Below, in pieces: positions 20,158 through 58,786 of a stretch of 64,000 nucleotides of DNA. A model generated the notes under the pieces. The model did no database searches, was not told where the DNA came from, and saw only the letters and a program-made list of their open reading frames with translations. The position numbers were made by a program, and so were the translations under genes. This DNA is from Chlorobiaceae bacterium (lineage in GTDB: Bacteria; Bacteroidota; Chlorobiia; Chlorobiales; Chlorobiaceae): positions 1-64,000 of the forward strand of contig JAAXVR010000002.1 of the NCBI GenBank assembly GCA_013335405.1, read 5' to 3'. Within the stretch, counting starts at the first letter, position 1. Every line of letters starts with the position of its first letter.

Positions 20158-21426
20158 TCAGTAACTGGCCTTGAAATAAGGATTGTCGCGAGGTCTCGTA
20201 ACCTGGTTGATATCGATTTCCTGGCCGATGCCTTCAAGGAAATTCTTGAGTCCAACCCGCTCGATGGTTTCACCGATACGTTCGTGGTCGAGGCCGTTGT
20301 CGTCCCACCAGTCTATGATCTCCTCGATCAGCTCGATAAACTCCTCGATATCCTCGTCACTCTCCATCTTCATGAACGGAACGATGAGAGAGCCCATGTT
20401 GACGCCAACCTTGAGGGTATTCTTGCCACCCATGAGCAGGGATATGCCCCTTTCCCTGCCGGGGGAAAGCGCTTTCGGCATGGCGTTCAGGCAGTGCATG
20501 CAGCGCACGCAGTCCCTGGTCTCGATATGCATTTCACCGTTCTGCATCGTGATGGCCCTGGTCGGGCAAAGGTTGATGACCTGGTTGACAAGGGCGTCAA
20601 CGCCTCGTTCCTCCACCCATGCCCTGACCTCCTCTGTGTCGACCTGGATAGCGTCCTTCCAGGTGCCGATGACGGCCATGTCGGAACGCATGATGGAATT
20701 GGTACAGTCGTTCGGGCAGCCGGAAAATTTGAACTTGAGTTTGTAGTTCCATTCCGGGCGGTGAAGCACACCGACGAAATGTTTCAGTGCCTTGAGATGA
20801 AGCTTGAGGTTGTCGTAACAGGCGTTCTCGCAGCGGCCGGGGCCGATGCAGGAAACAGCGGTACGCATGCCTGCTCCCGCTCCTCCGAGATCCCAGCCGT
20901 TCTGGTTGAGCTCGTCGAAGCACTCCTGGACTTTCTGCTGCTCGATGCCCTGCAGCATGATATCTCCGGTCTGGCCATGGAGCGTGATGATGCCGCTGCC
21001 GAATTTCTCCCACGTATCACAGAGGTTGCGGAGCATCCCGGTGTTATAGTGCAGGCCCGGTGCCGGCTGGATCCGCATGGTATGGAATTGCTCGGCTTCG
21101 GGGAACCTGTCCTTGATCATGGAGTAGCGCGTGATGATGCCGGCGCCGTAACCGTCCACGGTCACAAGGCCGCCTTTCCAGTATCCCATCTTCGTATTGT
21201 AGGAATACTCGAGCTGATCCATGACTCCGCGGAGCATGGGTTTTCTTGTCCTTTCGGCAAGCTCCTTGAATCCGGCAATAAAGCTCGGCCAGGGACCGTG
21301 CTCAAGCTCGTCAAGCATAGGGGTCGGGTTGAGAAACTTTCCGTCCGAACACGATCCTCCGTTTGAACACGAACAGCAGTTCCCGTTCTTGTTTACTTCA
21401 TTCGAAGCAGCGTTAGCTCCTTCCAT
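20158..21426 (-). CDS. dsrA: DsrA, alpha subunit of reverse dissimilatory sulfite reductase
   Basis: The 422-residue subunit carries the siroheme-4Fe-4S cysteines (SCIGPGRCENAC near 197, and FSGCPNDCTNSI near 235) and a ferredoxin insert (CPTRAI then CVRCMHCLNAMP near 300-320). A strong ribosome site (AAAGGAGG) precedes the start. The N-terminus has an extra stretch of about 30 residues with four Cys (17, 18, 20 and 26), absent from proteobacterial DsrA that start close to the TPMLDELE-type segment. It is preceded by dsrC at 54 bases. Confidence 0.96.
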   Translation of the reverse strand: MEGANAASNEVNKNGNCCSCSNGGSCSDGKFLNPTPMLDELEHGPWPSFIAGFKELAERTRKPMLRGVMDQLEYSYNTKMGYWKGGLVTVDGYGAGIITRYSMIKDRFPEAEQFHTMRIQPAPGLHYNTGMLRNLCDTWEKFGSGIITLHGQTGDIMLQGIEQQKVQECFDELNQNGWDLGGAGAGMRTAVSCIGPGRCENACYDNLKLHLKALKHFVGVLHRPEWNYKLKFKFSGCPNDCTNSIMRSDMAVIGTWKDAIQVDTEEVRAWVEERGVDALVNQVINLCPTRAITMQNGEMHIETRDCVRCMHCLNAMPKALSPGRERGISLLMGGKNTLKVGVNMGSLIVPFMKMESDEDIEEFIELIEEIIDWWDDNGLDHERIGETIERVGLKNFLEGIGQEIDINQVTRPRDNPYFKASY

Positions 21427-51052: not shown

Positions 51053-51991
51053 TCATGAGTTCTTCTGGCCGCCCCTGAGACGAACGGCGCTTTTTGAAAG
51101 TCTCAGCCAATCGAAGACAAGCGGTGCGGCAACGAAAATTGACGAGTAGGTGCCAACCAGAATACCCATGAAGACAGCAAACGCGAACCCCCGGATTGCT
51201 GGTCCGGCAAAAATAAAAAGAACGAGAACCGACAGCAGGACCGTTCCCGAAGTAATAACCGTCCTGCTCAGTGTCTGGTTCATGCTCTCATTGAAAATCC
51301 GCTCGTAATCGGAGGGCTTCTGCCCGCGGATTCTTTCCCTGATCCTGTCATACACAACGACAGTGTCGGTAATGGAGTACCCGGCGATAGTCAGGAATGC
51401 TGCAATGATGCTCTGGTCCATTTCAAGCGGCATGAACTCGAATAATCCGCCAAGGATGCTGAAAAGTCCGAGAACGGAGAGAATATCATGAAAAATGGCG
51501 ACGACTCCCGCCGAAGCGAACTTGATTTCAAAACGGAACCCGACATACAGCAGGATTGCAAACAGGGAAGCGATCAGCGCCTTGACGGCGGACCACTTCA
51601 GATCTGCGGCAATGCTCGGTCCAACGGCATCGATACGGACGATTTCATGCCTGTTTCCGGGAATCCTGCTTGTCAGTGCATTGTCGAGCAACGGCTTGAG
51701 TTCCCCTGTATCTCCCTTGAACACCATGCTCAAAAGAAAGGAACGGTCCATACCGTACTGTTTCAGGGAACCCGAAACACCTGCACCATCGAGCGCTCCG
51801 CGTACTGTCGACACATCGATATCCTTTTCGAAGCGGATGACAACCTCTGATCCGCCCCTGAAATCGATCCCATAGTTCAGACCTTTGATGGCAAAGGAAA
51901 TGAAGCCGGACAGGAGCAGGACGATGGAAATACCGTAAGCTATTTTACGATGACCGATAAAATTGAAATTGGTTTTGCTGAAAATCCTCAT
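51053..51991 (-). CDS. secF: Protein translocase subunit SecF
   Basis: The 312-residue protein has six membrane helices, the N-terminal periplasmic domain with GLNYGIDFRGGSEVVI and the SecD/F motif SITDTVVVYDRIRE near 213. With SecD it uses the proton motive force to help export. It follows secD after 22 bases. Confidence 0.95.
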   Translation of the reverse strand: MRIFSKTNFNFIGHRKIAYGISIVLLLSGFISFAIKGLNYGIDFRGGSEVVIRFEKDIDVSTVRGALDGAGVSGSLKQYGMDRSFLLSMVFKGDTGELKPLLDNALTSRIPGNRHEIVRIDAVGPSIAADLKWSAVKALIASLFAILLYVGFRFEIKFASAGVVAIFHDILSVLGLFSILGGLFEFMPLEMDQSIIAAFLTIAGYSITDTVVVYDRIRERIRGQKPSDYERIFNESMNQTLSRTVITSGTVLLSVLVLFIFAGPAIRGFAFAVFMGILVGTYSSIFVAAPLVFDWLRLSKSAVRLRGGQKNS

Positions 51992-52013
51992 TGGTTGAAA
52001 CGTCTATAATAAA

Positions 52014-53912
52014 TTATCCGAAACTCTTGTCATTCAGCTGGTTCTTTCCGAGAAGTCCCTCGAATATTTCCCTGGTCACCACGATGGCGGTAAACAGACT
52101 TGCCGAAGTTCCTATCATGAGCGTCACGGCAAATCCCTGGATAGGCCCGATGCCATAGGTATAAAGAAGAAAGGCGGCGACAAGCGTTGTGACATGGGAA
52201 TCCAGGATGGATGAAAACGCCCTGTCGTATCCCTGCGAGACCGCTCCTGCGATCGATTTTCCTTCAGCGAGCTCCTCACGTACCCTTTCGTAGATAAGTA
52301 CGTTTGCGTCGACAGCCATGCCGATGGTCAGCACGATACCGGCGATGCCAGGCAGGGAAAGGGATGCGTTGAAACCGGCAAGGACGGAAAGCACGATGAG
52401 TATGTTGAGAACAAGTGCGATGTCGGCGGCAATCCCTGCTTTTTTGTAATAAAAGAGCATGAACCCTGAAACCGCGACAAACGCCCAGAGAAGCGAAAGC
52501 ATTCCCGCCCTGATGTAATCGGCTCCAAGTGATGGGCCGACCGTCCGCTCTTCGGTAATTCTCACAGGAGCGGGAAGGGCGCCGGCTTTCAGCACGATCT
52601 CGAGGTCTTTTGCTTCTTCAAGGCTTTCAATCCCGTTGATGACGGAATTGCCGTTCGGAATTTTGGATTGGACGACAGGAGCACTGTAAACAGCGCCGTC
52701 GAGCACGATCGCAACTCGCTTTCCGATGTTCGCTCCTGTTATTCTGGCCCATTTGGATGTTCCCTCCGAGTTCATCGACATAAGCACTTCAGGTTGAACT
52801 CCCTGAGAGCCGAAAGTAGCCTTTGCTTCCGTGATGACACCACCGGTCAGTTCAGGAGTTTTCCTGACAAGGTAGATGGTATAAAATTTCTGTGTTTTGC
52901 TTCCGTAATCGTCCGGTTTGGCGGAAATAAGCAGTTCGGTATCCGGAGGCAGAAGCGCCATGATATCGGCCCTATGGAAAAGGGCGGAGACAAAATCCCT
53001 CGACTGCGCAGTGGTTACCGGGACACCGTACTGGTTGATCCCGACAAGATCGTACAGCGGTTTCGATGACTGACCGGCAACATTGGCGGCTGGAGCAGCT
53101 GGAGCAGCTGGAGCAGCTGGAACGGCTGGAACGGCTGGCACAGCGGCAGCATTCGAAACCGGAGCTGGAGATGCCGTGGTATCTGCTTTTACGGGCAGGG
53201 AAGTGACTGTCGAACCGTTCTGGGCGAGATAGGTATTTATCCGGTCAAGAGTCCTCAGAAGGACTTCCGGTTCCCTGAGAAGCCGGAATTCAAGCTTGGC
53301 GGTACCTTTGAGAAGATTGCGGACCCTGTTTTCATCGGAAACACCCGGAAGTTCGATAATGATTTTCCTGCTTCCCTGCGTCGTTATCACAGGCTCGGCA
53401 ACACCATACTGGTCAATACGATTCCGGATGATTTCCTTTGCCCGGCTCAGGGCATCATCGGATTCTTTCTGCAGCTTGTCAATTATTTCCTTGTCTGAAT
53501 TACGGATATCGTAGAAGTACCTGCTGAGCGGAATGTTTTCTTTTCTGAACTCGGATGCGATCAGATCTATGACTCTGGCATCGCTTGCTGCGGCATTCTT
53601 CCGGACGAGATCCATGATGGAAAAGAATTTCGCGTCCTTGTTCCAGGCCTTCTGCTCGAAAAGATCCACCTGGTCGACTTCCATGACGAGATGCATACCT
53701 CCCTTCAGATCGAGGCCGAGCTTGAGACTCTTCTTCCGCGCGTTTTCAATGTCATCTCGGTGGCTCATGGCGTAGCTCAGGCTGTCACGGGAAGTCCCGA
53801 AGCTTTCGAGCTGTTTCGTGTACATATAGTCCTGCCAGGTCGGAATCAGCGACCAGATCGATACAAGGGTGACTACGGCAATCAGAAAAAGGTTAAAACG
53901 TTTGTTTTTCAT
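52014..53912 (-). CDS. secD: Protein translocase subunit SecD
   Basis: The 632-residue protein has an N-terminal helix, [16 protein letters not shown] near 65, the periplasmic P1 domain with GVADENR-type [12 protein letters not shown], and the C-terminal six-helix part with [16 protein letters not shown] near 540. An Ala-Pro-Val-rich linker with a 9-base tandem repeat (53092-53136) sits in the middle of the periplasmic part (about 255-280), unlike most SecD. It precedes secF. Confidence 0.95.
53092..53136. repeat. Tandem 9-bp repeat in secD (Ala-Pro-Ala/Val linker)
   Basis: Five copies of a 9-bp unit are seen: three of GGAGCAGCT and two of GGAACGGCT on the plus strand. On the coding strand they read as Ala-Pro-Ala and Val-Pro-Ala triplets. 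The copies are close to identical, so the number could vary between strains without breaking the frame. Confidence 0.9.
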
Positions 53913-54087: not shown

Positions 54088-55386
54088 TTATCCCCAGGTA
54101 TCATGAATGATATTGTTGTACCAGCCTACCGCAAAGCTTGCTTCTTCCTTGAGCTGATCAGCATCTGCATTCATGGGAGTGAGGCCGCCTGCCCCCTGGA
54201 TTTCGACAATACCGTCTGCGGTCAGTTTGTAGACGCCGGCAACAGATATAGCGTAATCGGTACCGATCAGACTGTAACAGGTATTGACCAGAGAGGGTGA
54301 CGCCGGAACCTTGCCCTGCAGCAGCCTGACAATAGCCGCAGCGGCAACCTTGCCCTGGCTGCTCGCGGCGAATCCGGATTTCGGCATGGCACCGGCGACG
54401 CTGGCATCGCCAATCACATGAATACCGGGATGAATGGTTGATTCAAAAGATACTGGATTTATCGGACACCAGCCGCTGGCGTCGGTAAGGCCTGCGTCGA
54501 AAGCGATTTTACCGGCTTTCTGGGGAGGGATGAGATTGATGACATCACCTTTCTCCTCACCGAATTCAGTCGTCACGGTCATGGTAGTTCCATCCAGCTT
54601 TACGATTTTGCCGCCCGTCACACCTGAGCGCCACTCAATCATTCCCGGGTAGAGTTTTTCCCATCCCTGCTTGAACAGACCCTGCTTTGAAAATTTGTCC
54701 TTTGGATCAAGGATGAGAATTTTTGAAAGCGGTTTTTTCGCCTTCAGGTAATGGGCGATGAGGCTTGCCCTTTCATAAGGGCCGGGAGGACACCTGAAGG
54801 GATTTGACGGAGGACAGATGATCACTTTGCCTCCGTTTCTCATTGCATGGAGCTGATTCTGCAGCAAGACGGTCTGGGCCCCTGCCTGGTAGGCATGAGG
54901 TATCTTCGTGTTTGCCAGTGCTTCACTGTGCCCGGGAATCGCATCCCATTTGAAATCGATACCCGGTGAAACGATAAGGCGGTCGTAATTCAGGACCATA
55001 CCGCTTTTCAGTTTGACGGTTCCCCGGGCAGCATCGACAGCAACCGCACTGTCAGCAATGACATTTATCTGGTATTTGTTTCTGAGTACCGCATAGGTCT
55101 GGGAGATATCGCCCATTGTCCTGAGGCCGGCAAGAACCCAGTTGCTGAAAGGACAGGTATGGAAAACCGCTTTCGGCTCGACAAGGGTAACGGAAATGGA
55201 AGGGTCCAGTTTCCGGAGATACTTTGCCGCTGCAGCCCCACCGAAACCGCCGCCGATGACGACAACCCTTTTCGATGCGCCGAAGGCTTTCGAAGGCGTT
55301 CCGAAAAGACCGAGCGAAGCTCCTGCCGCTCCGGTAAGAAGAAGTTTGCTGAAATCCCTTCTTGAAATTTTGTGGCTCATTTTCAT
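54088..55386 (-). CDS. fccB: Flavocytochrome c sulfide dehydrogenase, flavoprotein subunit
   Basis: The 432-residue protein starts with a Tat signal ([22 protein letters not shown]), then [22 protein letters not shown], the FAD-binding part. The active-site Cys are seen near 94 (TCPFSNWVL) and 192-205 ([15 protein letters not shown]). The FCSD C-terminal dimerisation domain follows. It oxidizes sulfide in the periplasm and passes electrons to FccA. It follows fccA after 12 bases and is the last gene of the operon. Confidence 0.92.
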
Positions 55387-55398
55387 TCTCCGGATTGG

Positions 55399-55737
55399 TT
55401 ATTTGTTACGCGAGAATCTTCCGAAATACTCGGCGATAAGCCGGATTTCGGCATCGGTATATCCCTTGGCATGACGGCTCATAACCGTCGAATAACGAGC
55501 CCCGGATTTGAAGGCAAGCATTGCTGATTCGATGTACGAAGTACTTCTTCCGTTTATCGGCGGAATAAGGCCGACGCTTTTACCGTCCGTACCGTGACAG
55601 GATGAGCAGGAAAGCGAGAGCACCAGGCCTCTGGGATTGACTTCCGACGTGTTTGCTGCCGAAGCAACGCTCCCGGGTAACAGTGCTGCCGCAGAGAATG
55701 CACATGCAGCCAGCCACAATCTGAGATTTGCAGCCAT
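55399..55737 (-). CDS. fccA: FccA, monoheme cytochrome c subunit of sulfide dehydrogenase
   Basis: The frame opens at 55836, but a start at 55737 gives 112 residues with a clean signal peptide (residues 1-27; [10 protein letters not shown] before ANTSEV). The heme site is CSSCH near 46. The distal Met lies in [11 protein letters not shown] near 87. It is the electron acceptor of FccB. It lies between soxZ (88 bases) and fccB (12 bases). Confidence 0.88.
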
Positions 55738-55825: not shown

Positions 55826-56134
55826 TTACAGAACAACGATCTCCGAGGAAAACCGCACGTTTTTACTGTCGGTGAATGTCACGTTCAGCACATCACCTTT
55901 TTTACCGTTGAAACGGAATTGAAGAAAAGGATCTTTTGAAACTGAGGGGCCAAACTGCAGATCGAAGAGATGCGCCCCGTTCAGCTGAACAATCCCTGTT
56001 TTCAGAAAATGTGCAGGCACAAGATTCCCCTGTTCATCCTTCCTCGCTCCCGACTCGTTCGGGTGAGAGATGACCAGTTTCATCGAAACGACTCCATTTT
56101 CTTCCCTGGCAACCATTCTAACACTGTCGCTCAT
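55826..56134 (-). CDS. soxZ: SoxZ-like sulfur-carrier partner protein
   Basis: The 102-residue protein has the SoxZ fold ([30 protein letters not shown] and the end [12 protein letters not shown]). It is the Ig-fold partner of SoxY in the periplasm, and has no signal peptide because it is exported with SoxY. It follows soxY after 30 bases. Confidence 0.85.
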
Positions 56135-56164: not shown

Positions 56165-56602
56165 TTAACAGGCCTGTGCCAGGACGTTGACATGAACGCT
56201 CGACATAAGGTATTGACGCCCGTCCCAGATAACGGCATGAAGGGATGAGCTCTCCTTCATCTTTATATTGAGAGCAAGCCAGGGCTGCGCATTGGCTTGC
56301 AGATTACAGACAAATACGAGCGGGGTCAGGTTTTTCTCGACAAAAAGATAAATCCGCTCGCATTTGATGGCAGAATTGATCTCAACAGGCACGGAAGATC
56401 CATCCGATGCTACAGGCGGAGCCGTGATGGTCAATTTGTCGGTTTTCGCAATATCTGCCGTACCGAGCGCATTACGGAACGCATCCTGAATCGGCACCTG
56501 CTGAAAATATTTGTCCATCCATTCCGCAAACAGTTTTCCGGGGCGGGCCAGCAAAAAACCGCCAAGCAGTATGCAGGAGGCAAGGAATTGCCTTCGTTCC
56601 AT
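56165..56602 (-). CDS. soxY: SoxY-like protein with non-canonical C-terminus
   Basis: A longer frame opens at 56701, but a start at 56602 gives 145 residues with an RR-type export signal (MERRQFLASCILLGGFLLA). The core has the SoxY pattern DAFRNALGTADIAKTDKLTITAPPVASDG and VPVEINSA. Canonical SoxY ends in GGCGG, where the Cys carries the sulfur. Here the end is VHVNVLAQAC, a single Cys as the last residue with no Gly pairs. It is first of four genes soxY-soxZ-fccA-fccB. A sulfur-carrying role for the end Cys is possible but unproven. Confidence 0.75.
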   Translation of the reverse strand: MERRQFLASCILLGGFLLARPGKLFAEWMDKYFQQVPIQDAFRNALGTADIAKTDKLTITAPPVASDGSSVPVEINSAIKCERIYLFVEKNLTPLVFVCNLQANAQPWLALNIKMKESSSLHAVIWDGRQYLMSSVHVNVLAQAC

Positions 56603-56920: not shown

Positions 56921-58786
56921 ATGTATGACATCATAGTTGCGGGAGCCGGACATGCCGGATGTGAAGCCGCCCTTGCGGCCGCAAGAACAGATTGCTCCTG
57001 CCTCCTTGTGACAACCGACATGAACGCAGTAGCAAGGATGCCATGCAATCCTGCGATCGGTGGAGTGGCAAAAGGGCAGATTACGAGGGAAATAGATGCT
57101 CTTGGCGGTGAAATGGCCAGGGCTATCGACGCGACAGCCATTCAGGTACGAATGCTCAACAGAAGCAAGGGGCCTGCGATGCATTCGCCCAGGGCACAGG
57201 CCGACCGTGCTCTTTATTCGGCATACATGCGAAATGCTATCGAAAATGAACGAAATATCGATATCGTTCAGGATACGGTTACAGGTATCGAATGCATTTC
57301 CGGAATATTTTCGGGTGTACGGCTCTCTACCGGCAGGGTCATAGCCGGGAAAGCCGCAATATTGACCTGCGGAACGTTCCTTAATGGTCTTATCCATATC
57401 GGAATGACCCAATATCCCGGAGGCAGAAGTGTTGCCGATCCCCCGGTTCATGGTCTCACGGAAAACCTTGTCGGATACGGGTTCAGATCGGGACGCCTCA
57501 AAACAGGGACCCCGCCAAGAATAGATTCGCGCAGTGTTGATTATACCCTGGTTGAGGAACAGAACGGAGACGAGGATCCAATATATTTTTCTTTCGAATC
57601 AACTCCTTGCGAAAGCCGCAGGCAAATCAGCTGCTACATAACGAAAACAACACCTTCAACCCATTCGATACTGCAAAAAGGGTTCGAGCGCTCTCCTCTT
57701 TTTACCGGAAAAGTCAAAGGCATCGGTCCGAGATACTGCCCCTCTATCGAAGACAAAATCTTTCGTTTCCCACACAAGGAGAGCCATCATATTTTTCTTG
57801 AACCTGAAGGGTTCGACACCAACGAGATGTATGTCAACGGTTTTTCCACCTCTCTTCCGGAAGATATTCAGATTGAAGGCCTCAGATCAATTCCTGGTCT
57901 GGCTGATGTCAAAATGATACGTCCCGGATATGCCATCGAGTATGACTTTTTTTTCCCATATCAGCTTAAACGGACTCTCGAAACCAAAATCATCGGAAAC
58001 CTCTACTTTGCAGGTCAGATCAACGGCACATCAGGCTACGAAGAAGCTGCCGCACAGGGCCTTATCGCCGGAATAAACGCATCTCTCGAGATAAAGAACA
58101 TGAATCCCCTCGTACTGAAGCGTTCCGATGCCTACATTGGTGTGCTGATCGACGACCTGATAACCAAGGATACGAGAGAACCTTATCGTATGTTCACTTC
58201 ATCCGCCGAACATCGGTTAGTCCTGCGGCATGACAATGCCGATATCCGTCTGCTTGATTTCTGTGCTTCTTCAGGGCTTGTGAGCACCGAAACTCTTGAA
58301 AAGAGAAAAGAGAAAAAAAAGAAAATCGAGGAACTGAAGCAATGCTGTGCAAATTCTAAATTTTCATCAGAGGAAATCAATCCGCTTCTTCATAAAAATG
58401 GTTATCCTTTGTCTTCCGGACCCATGACTGCCGTGAACCTGCTTAAACGCCCGGGAATTCACTTCCACATGCTGCTCGACAGCATCGGAAGATTTGCATC
58501 TGTCGTCAATGGAGTTTCTTCCGATCCTTTTGTTCACGAACAGGTTGACATCGATATCAAATACGAAGGGTACCTGAAGCGCGATCTTCTTGTTGCGGAT
58601 AAAATCCTTCGTCTGGAATCTCATCAGATACCGTTATCTTTCAAATACGAAGGAATTGCCGGCCTTTCCAGTGAAGGACGGGAAAAACTTAACCTGCACA
58701 GACCGGAAACTATCGGACAGGCATCAAGAATTCTTGGCGTCTCCCCCTCTGATATTTCCGTTCTCCTTGTCCGTCTCGGTCGATGA
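56921..58786 (+). CDS. mnmG: tRNA uridine 5-carboxymethylaminomethyl modification enzyme MnmG
   Basis: The 621-residue protein begins [20 protein letters not shown] (FAD-binding) and has the signature [19 protein letters not shown] near 190 and [14 protein letters not shown] near 367. With MnmE it modifies U34 in several tRNAs. In many bacteria it lies near the replication origin and parAB, here with parS sites on both sides. Confidence 0.96.

Follow-up and report, generated by a model that had tools for sequence, protein, structure and literature searches.

What does a SoxY protein carry if its C-terminal arm ends in a bare cysteine and its gene lies in one operon with the genes of a flavocytochrome c sulfide dehydrogenase (FccAB)? 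The question was raised by a 64,000-nucleotide stretch of Chlorobiaceae DNA, here called the window. For this locus, an earlier note had suggested a new use of SoxYZ, namely as a sulfur carrier that takes its load directly from sulfide dehydrogenase, or else a different cargo or a loss of function.

The soxY gene of the window and its operon

The soxY variant (56165..56602, minus strand) encodes a protein of 145 amino acids with a Tat-type start (MERRQFL) and a SoxY domain spanning residues 44-145. Its C-terminal sequence reads SSVHVNVLAQAC, and the final residues are VHVNVLAQAC. Both the open reading frame and the alignment described below thus bear out the earlier note, according to which cysteine is the last residue and Gly pairs are missing. 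The arm L-A-Q-A-C-stop (56165..56182, minus strand) stands where the canonical arm has T-I-G-G-C-G-G. In the window sequence, the Cys145 codon is TGT (56168-56170) and the stop codon is TAA (56165-56167); no in-frame GG codons were found downstream of this stop.

The protein belongs to the SoxY family PF13501, as its score of 73.7 bits (E=1.7e-20) exceeds the curated cut-off of 28.4 and its predicted model matches SoxY structures first. The AlphaFold2 model, computed together with relatives of the protein, has a mean pLDDT of 79, and the top PDB matches to the predicted fold are SoxY of Chlorobium (2nnc, TM normalized to target 0.86), Thermus, and Paracoccus. The last strand of the model comprises residues 131-141, and the final four residues, A-Q-A-C, are free. 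Compared with the canonical model TIGR04488 (SoxY_true_GGCGG), window SoxY scored 84.8 bits, which is below the equivalog cut-off of 125, and its LAQAC tail is not the GGCGG arm that this model specifies.

The four genes are arranged on one strand in the order soxY-soxZ-fccA-fccB with gaps of 30, 88, and 12 bp, in agreement with the single operon proposed earlier. The soxZ gene (55826..56134, minus strand) encodes a cysteine-free protein of 102 amino acids (Pfam SoxZ, E=7.4e-28), which scored 94.8 bits with SoxZ_true (TIGR04490) and thereby exceeds the cut-off of 76. It is followed by fccA (55399..55737, minus strand), encoding a monoheme cytochrome c subunit with the motif CSSCH, and fccB (54088..55386, minus strand), encoding the flavoprotein of flavocytochrome c sulfide dehydrogenase with both FCSD domains (PF21706, PF09242). 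Both active-site cysteine motifs of FccB are present, CPPGPYER (Cys199) and the NTCY region (Cys370; NTCY starts at residue 368). We take these cysteines to be the redox-active pair, a redox disulfide by homology. By its FCSD domains, both cysteine motifs, and the heme c subunit, the gene product is an FccAB enzyme. The divergent mnmG gene (56921..58786, plus strand) flanks the locus on one side; secD and secF (51053..53912, minus strand) form the downstream flank and lie outside the function.

The genome of the window is 2.47 Mb in size and 99.99% complete. It encodes a single SoxY, the 56165-56602 protein. SoxA and SoxB were found nowhere in the whole genome, and no SoxX match exceeded the cut-off genome-wide; the best one (44 bits vs 61) lies within an 883-residue open frame that contains three such matches. 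The lack of soxX, soxA, and soxB, which the earlier note had stated for the window, thus extends to the genome, in which no member of the SoxA, SoxX, and SoxB set that goes with TIGR04488 scored above the cut-off.

A SoxY clade with a terminal cysteine

SoxY matches were obtained in 46 of 98 Chlorobiales genomes. Nineteen genomes carry the canonical tail VKVTIGGCGG, including G018, which was counted as canonical although its SoxY is cut by the contig end and the tail is absent from the read. Another 26 carry the variant, defined by a terminal Cys preceded by Q or E and then A or G, without a flanking Gly pair. The variant genomes comprise 24 from the genus of the window and two from another family of the order, which we infer to be Chloroherpeton-like. 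One Chloroherpeton-like variant lies narrowly above the TIGR04488 cut-off (127.6 bits vs 125). A Gly pair around the terminal Cys is absent from the variant SoxY proteins.

The terminal Cys is invariant in all 26 variants and falls into the same alignment column as the Cys of GGCGG; it is therefore the homologous carrier Cys. The Chloroherpeton-like sequence AGNKYYTTSAHVKVNAEAC aligns gap-free with AGGKLYRATREVKVTIGGC. Judged from the aligned sequences, the trailing GG is lost in the variant tail and the preceding GG is replaced by QA or EA. Since the same tail occurs in 25 other species with an invariant Cys, it is due neither to chance nor to a sequencing error. A frameshift or resequencing error that hides a GGCGG motif is rejected by the occurrence of the tail in 26 species and the lack of GG codons after the stop. 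Nor does the genome hold a second, canonical soxY alongside relatives that have lost the Cys, the other finding that the note had regarded as fatal to its proposal.

A second cysteine, C99, is invariant in the 24 variants of the genus of the window and absent from the two Chloroherpeton-like ones; in window SoxY it could pair with C145. We also observed a minor SoxYZ kind with the tail VGGCG at L063:6032-6838 (G012) and L064:5737-6549 (G007). SoxA and SoxB are absent from both genomes, and the neighbors in L063 are a PF04199 putative cyclase, a PagL-like protein, and an alpha/beta hydrolase.

In the phylogenetic tree, the 26 variants form one side of a branch (100/89). They still group when the tail columns are removed (98/79), which rejects the tail itself as the cause of the grouping. 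The SoxY proteins of green sulfur bacteria, variant plus canonical, may or may not form a single group (AU p 0.41). Recent horizontal transfer of the variant is not favored, because the position of the locus between mnmG and secD does not vary and the Chloroherpeton-like genomes contain members of the same clade.

The codons of the terminal Cys in the 22 variants aligned are TGT (14) and TGC (8), followed by TAA or TGA, and pairwise dN/dS among variants amounts to 0.10-0.30. This purifying selection contradicts the proposed loss of function and, together with the invariant Cys, rejects a degenerate remnant. In G082 (L207:5043-6048), a C-terminal SoxB fragment adjoins an N-terminal FccB-like fragment, apparently what a large internal deletion has left of a sox cluster. 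The variant soxYZ-fccAB of this genome is intact. We regard a decaying Sox remnant or sequencing artifact as hardly credible: the canonical tail and the other Sox genes are missing and the sox cluster of G082 has apparently decayed, but 26 species share an invariant Cys with synonymous codon changes under the dN/dS values given above, the variants still separate as a clade when the tail columns are left out, and the variant soxYZ of G082 stays intact while the sox cluster decays. We conclude from the protein and codon sequences that selection has conserved the glycine-less tail with its terminal Cys, which marks a SoxY clade of its own.

The clade appears to be confined to Chlorobiales within the range covered. 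With a variant profile run over 395 Bacteroidota genomes, strong matches (at least 188 bits) were obtained only in Chlorobiales; the next best match scored 111 bits, and the variant was not found in the approximately 300 Bacteroidota genomes other than Chlorobiales. A scan of genome contigs returned 21 Chlorobiaceae or Chlorobiota records and five weak proteobacterial loci; it used two Chlorobium-type peptide patterns and did not pick up the Chloroherpeton-like members, so that rarer variants may exist elsewhere. The proteobacterial loci (L116-L120) were rejected as variants, as their tails are GGC-type or belong to SoxYZ fusions. A plasmid search gave no match.

In 369 genomes of a class centered on an Oxalobacteraceae genome (Gammaproteobacteria), the top match to the profile reached 130 bits, and none of the best 30 matches had the variant tail; 29 ended in GGCGG and one in RGGCYESGG. 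The RGGCYESGG soxY of G474 lies beside fccAB, and G550 has soxY with the tail TIGGCG directly after fccB. Such altered tails beside fccAB therefore occur beyond green sulfur bacteria, too. Among the matches listed, SoxY and FccB were seen by eye within approximately 5 kb of each other in at least three of these gammaproteobacterial genomes. The loci L204:3777-6792 and L205:4397-6860 show gammaproteobacterial fccAB adjoining soxYZ, with the tails TIGGCG and RGGCYESGG.

Linkage to fccAB and the proposed role of SoxYZ

The idea that the terminal Cys occurs only where fccAB is linked held throughout the Chlorobiales SoxY alignment. All 26 variant loci have fccA after soxYZ, and 25 have fccB next; the contig of the remaining one (G043) stops before it. 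A variant soxYZ without adjoining fccA was found in none of the 26 genomes. Wherever the contig was long enough, loci from the genus of the window showed the arrangement mnmG / soxY-soxZ-fccA-fccB / secD-secF. SoxA and full-length SoxB are absent from 25 of the 26 variant genomes, the exception being G027, which has SoxA and SoxB together with its own canonical soxY on a separate contig. Across the 98 Chlorobiales genomes, SoxB exceeded the cut-off in 18 and SoxA was detected in 19; no variant-only genome is among them. Genomes with fccB hardly ever have both the variant and GGCGG soxY (1/19 vs 25/34; Fisher p 1.4e-6, a value inflated by relatedness).

FccB was found in 53 of the 98 genomes. 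In the variant-less loci that we read, fccAB occupies the same mnmG-secD site minus soxYZ, and tblastn revealed no convincing soxYZ remnant at the loss loci. Seven fccAB genomes without the variant have no SoxY whatever (G006, G010, G014, G019, G022, G029, G039). On a tree of MnmG, SecD, and SecF, the presence of soxYZ needs three changes, of which starred branches force two; if the trait is taken to be ancestral, this would mean about three losses. Since fccAB was kept without soxYZ, FccAB does not need the variant SoxYZ, and its retention in about three lineages makes SoxYZ at most an optional partner. This suggests a non-essential role in raising the efficiency of FccAB or directing its product.

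Eight FccB positions (T97, E155, K239, S254, A303, Q357, K359, D408) are conserved in the presence of soxYZ and altered in at least two of the three loss lineages. Such columns were more frequent in FccB (8/244) than in MnmG plus SecD (6/686; Fisher p 0.013), a post hoc signal that is weak and confounded by phylogeny. No FccA columns altered along with soxYZ loss were found. The relaxation of these eight FccB positions, the retention of FccAB without SoxYZ, and the invariance of C99 in all 24 variants of the Chlorobium genus would fit a structural or repair partner that, for example, reduces over-oxidized or over-persulfidated FccB and is not a stoichiometric acceptor. The Chloroherpeton-like proteins, however, lack C99, and with an FccB signal of this quality we consider such a partner quite improbable.

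In flavocytochrome c catalysis, the sulfur of the enzyme must be taken up by a thiol or sulfide. As the operon itself encodes a carrier thiol, which always accompanies the enzyme and occurs without the Sox enzymes of thiosulfate oxidation, SoxYZ is best explained as the acceptor of FccAB. We give an even chance to the variant SoxYZ serving FccAB as a dedicated acceptor in the periplasm for the sulfane sulfur that the enzyme releases. In the model that we infer, which comprises the persulfide chemistry, the direction of transfer, the downstream recipient, and the transfer and release steps, FccAB would oxidize sulfide via its active-site disulfide and leave a sulfane sulfur on an FccB cysteine. 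SoxY Cys145, located on a short free arm, would accept this sulfur and thereby form a persulfide or a short polysulfide; SoxYZ would then pass it on, either to extracellular sulfur as it grows or to a carrier further downstream. With no need for SoxAX and SoxB to bind the arm any longer, the glycines on either side of the Cys may have disappeared. In favor of the model, sulfane chains can be bound by the arm Cys of SoxYZ from P. pantotrophus (PMC5336275), and the two gammaproteobacterial soxY genes next to fccAB have altered tails as well. Against it count the retention of fccAB in genomes that lost soxYZ and the fact that mutants without flavocytochrome c, in both A. vinosum and C. tepidum, oxidize sulfide at rates very similar to those of controls (PMC8232776).

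SoxYZ could also work in reverse or downstream, taking up globule or polysulfide sulfur that FccAB removes or oxidizes, or delivering sulfur toward cytoplasmic Dsr. Most variant genomes encode DsrA, including that of the window (20167-21315 of the window), and transport of SoxYZ-bound sulfur to import systems has been proposed in Hyphomicrobium (PMC11582611). The strict tie of the variant is, however, with fccA and not with Dsr, and the Chloroherpeton-like genomes retain soxYZ-fccAB without DsrA, a gene content that points to a step before Dsr. We therefore judge a reversed or downstream role unlikely.

Finally, SoxYZ may carry another ligand, such as sulfite or thiosulfate, with the linkage to fccAB reflecting co-regulation only. 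To judge by its title, a 2013 paper by Dahl reportedly links SoxYZ to the oxidation of sulfite in A. vinosum. A thiosulfate adduct is possible on P. pantotrophus SoxYZ (PMC5336275), but SoxAX for thiosulfate loading and SoxB for hydrolysis are missing here, and fccA is linked in 26 of 26 cases, which makes another ligand a rather improbable cargo.

Relation to known systems and meaning of the clade

The variant shares with canonical SoxYZ (TIGR04488, TIGR04490) the fold, the Tat-type start, the SoxZ partner, and the homologous Cys position, but its arm is AQAC-stop instead of TIGGCGG, SoxAX and SoxB are lacking, and the genes are linked to fccAB. SoxF, the FccB homologue of canonical sox clusters, likewise places an FccB-type flavoprotein beside soxYZ but belongs to a SoxXYZAB system with a GGCGG SoxY. 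To go by the title of Ogawa's 2010 paper, monomeric SoxF of Chlorobaculum tepidum reportedly stimulates thiosulfate oxidation in vitro. TIGR04487 (SoxY_para_1, the SoxY-related AACIE arm protein) is likewise a SoxY relative with another Cys-containing arm, but its motif differs. Nine of 22 variants match this model (best E=1.3e-11); the one score obtained for a variant, L020 with 32.2 bits, falls far short of the cut-off of 172, and window SoxY gave no match at E<=0.001 and stays outside this family. SoxYZ fusion carriers (TIGR04557; SoxYZ-S2 and S4 of PMC11237559) resemble the variant in that their arm diverges and their role is not in thiosulfate oxidation; unlike the variant, they are fused and tied to carbon-metabolism dehydrogenases.

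PMC10158934 describes a soxYZ-fccAB cluster in non-coral Prosthecochloris, states with reference to Gregersen 2011 that green sulfur bacteria conserve it, and reports approximately 30% identity of its SoxYZ to canonical SoxYZ and the absence of soxAX and soxB. The genes are the same as ours, but we found there no account of the terminal-Cys tail and its conservation or of a mechanism. Green sulfur bacteria with SoxYZ only are also mentioned in PMC8066431. One strain, C. limicola DSM 245, has no SoxB but produces flavocytochrome c (PMC8066431, PMC8232776), and Chlorobaculum tepidum is expected to combine fccAB with canonical Sox alone. A 2024 SoxY survey discarded sequences without GGC (PMC11237559) and would therefore have removed the terminal-Cys clade. 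The literature examined yielded neither an account of the terminal-Cys tail nor a transfer test; a prior remark in Gregersen 2011 is possible. Of the new SoxYZ use proposed by the earlier note, the cluster is thus already known, and what appears to be new is the conserved, glycine-less terminal-Cys SoxY clade.

That green sulfur bacterial SoxYZ has been rebuilt as an FccAB acceptor, with sulfide oxidized straight onto the C-terminal Cys of SoxY as a persulfide without thiosulfate, SoxAX, or SoxB, is a tentative proposal whose chances we put somewhat short of even. If true, FccAB would be a sulfide-to-carrier sulfurtransferase, beyond a producer of free polysulfide. Mutants oxidize sulfide almost normally (PMC8232776), which puts the in vivo role of FccAB in doubt; a carrier found only with FccAB is a concrete candidate acceptor for the sulfur atom made by flavocytochrome c. 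Two uses of SoxYZ could be told apart, a GGCGG tail with SoxAX and SoxB and a bare terminal Cys with FccAB. Taking soxYZ as a sign of thiosulfate oxidation is wrong for the variant genomes.
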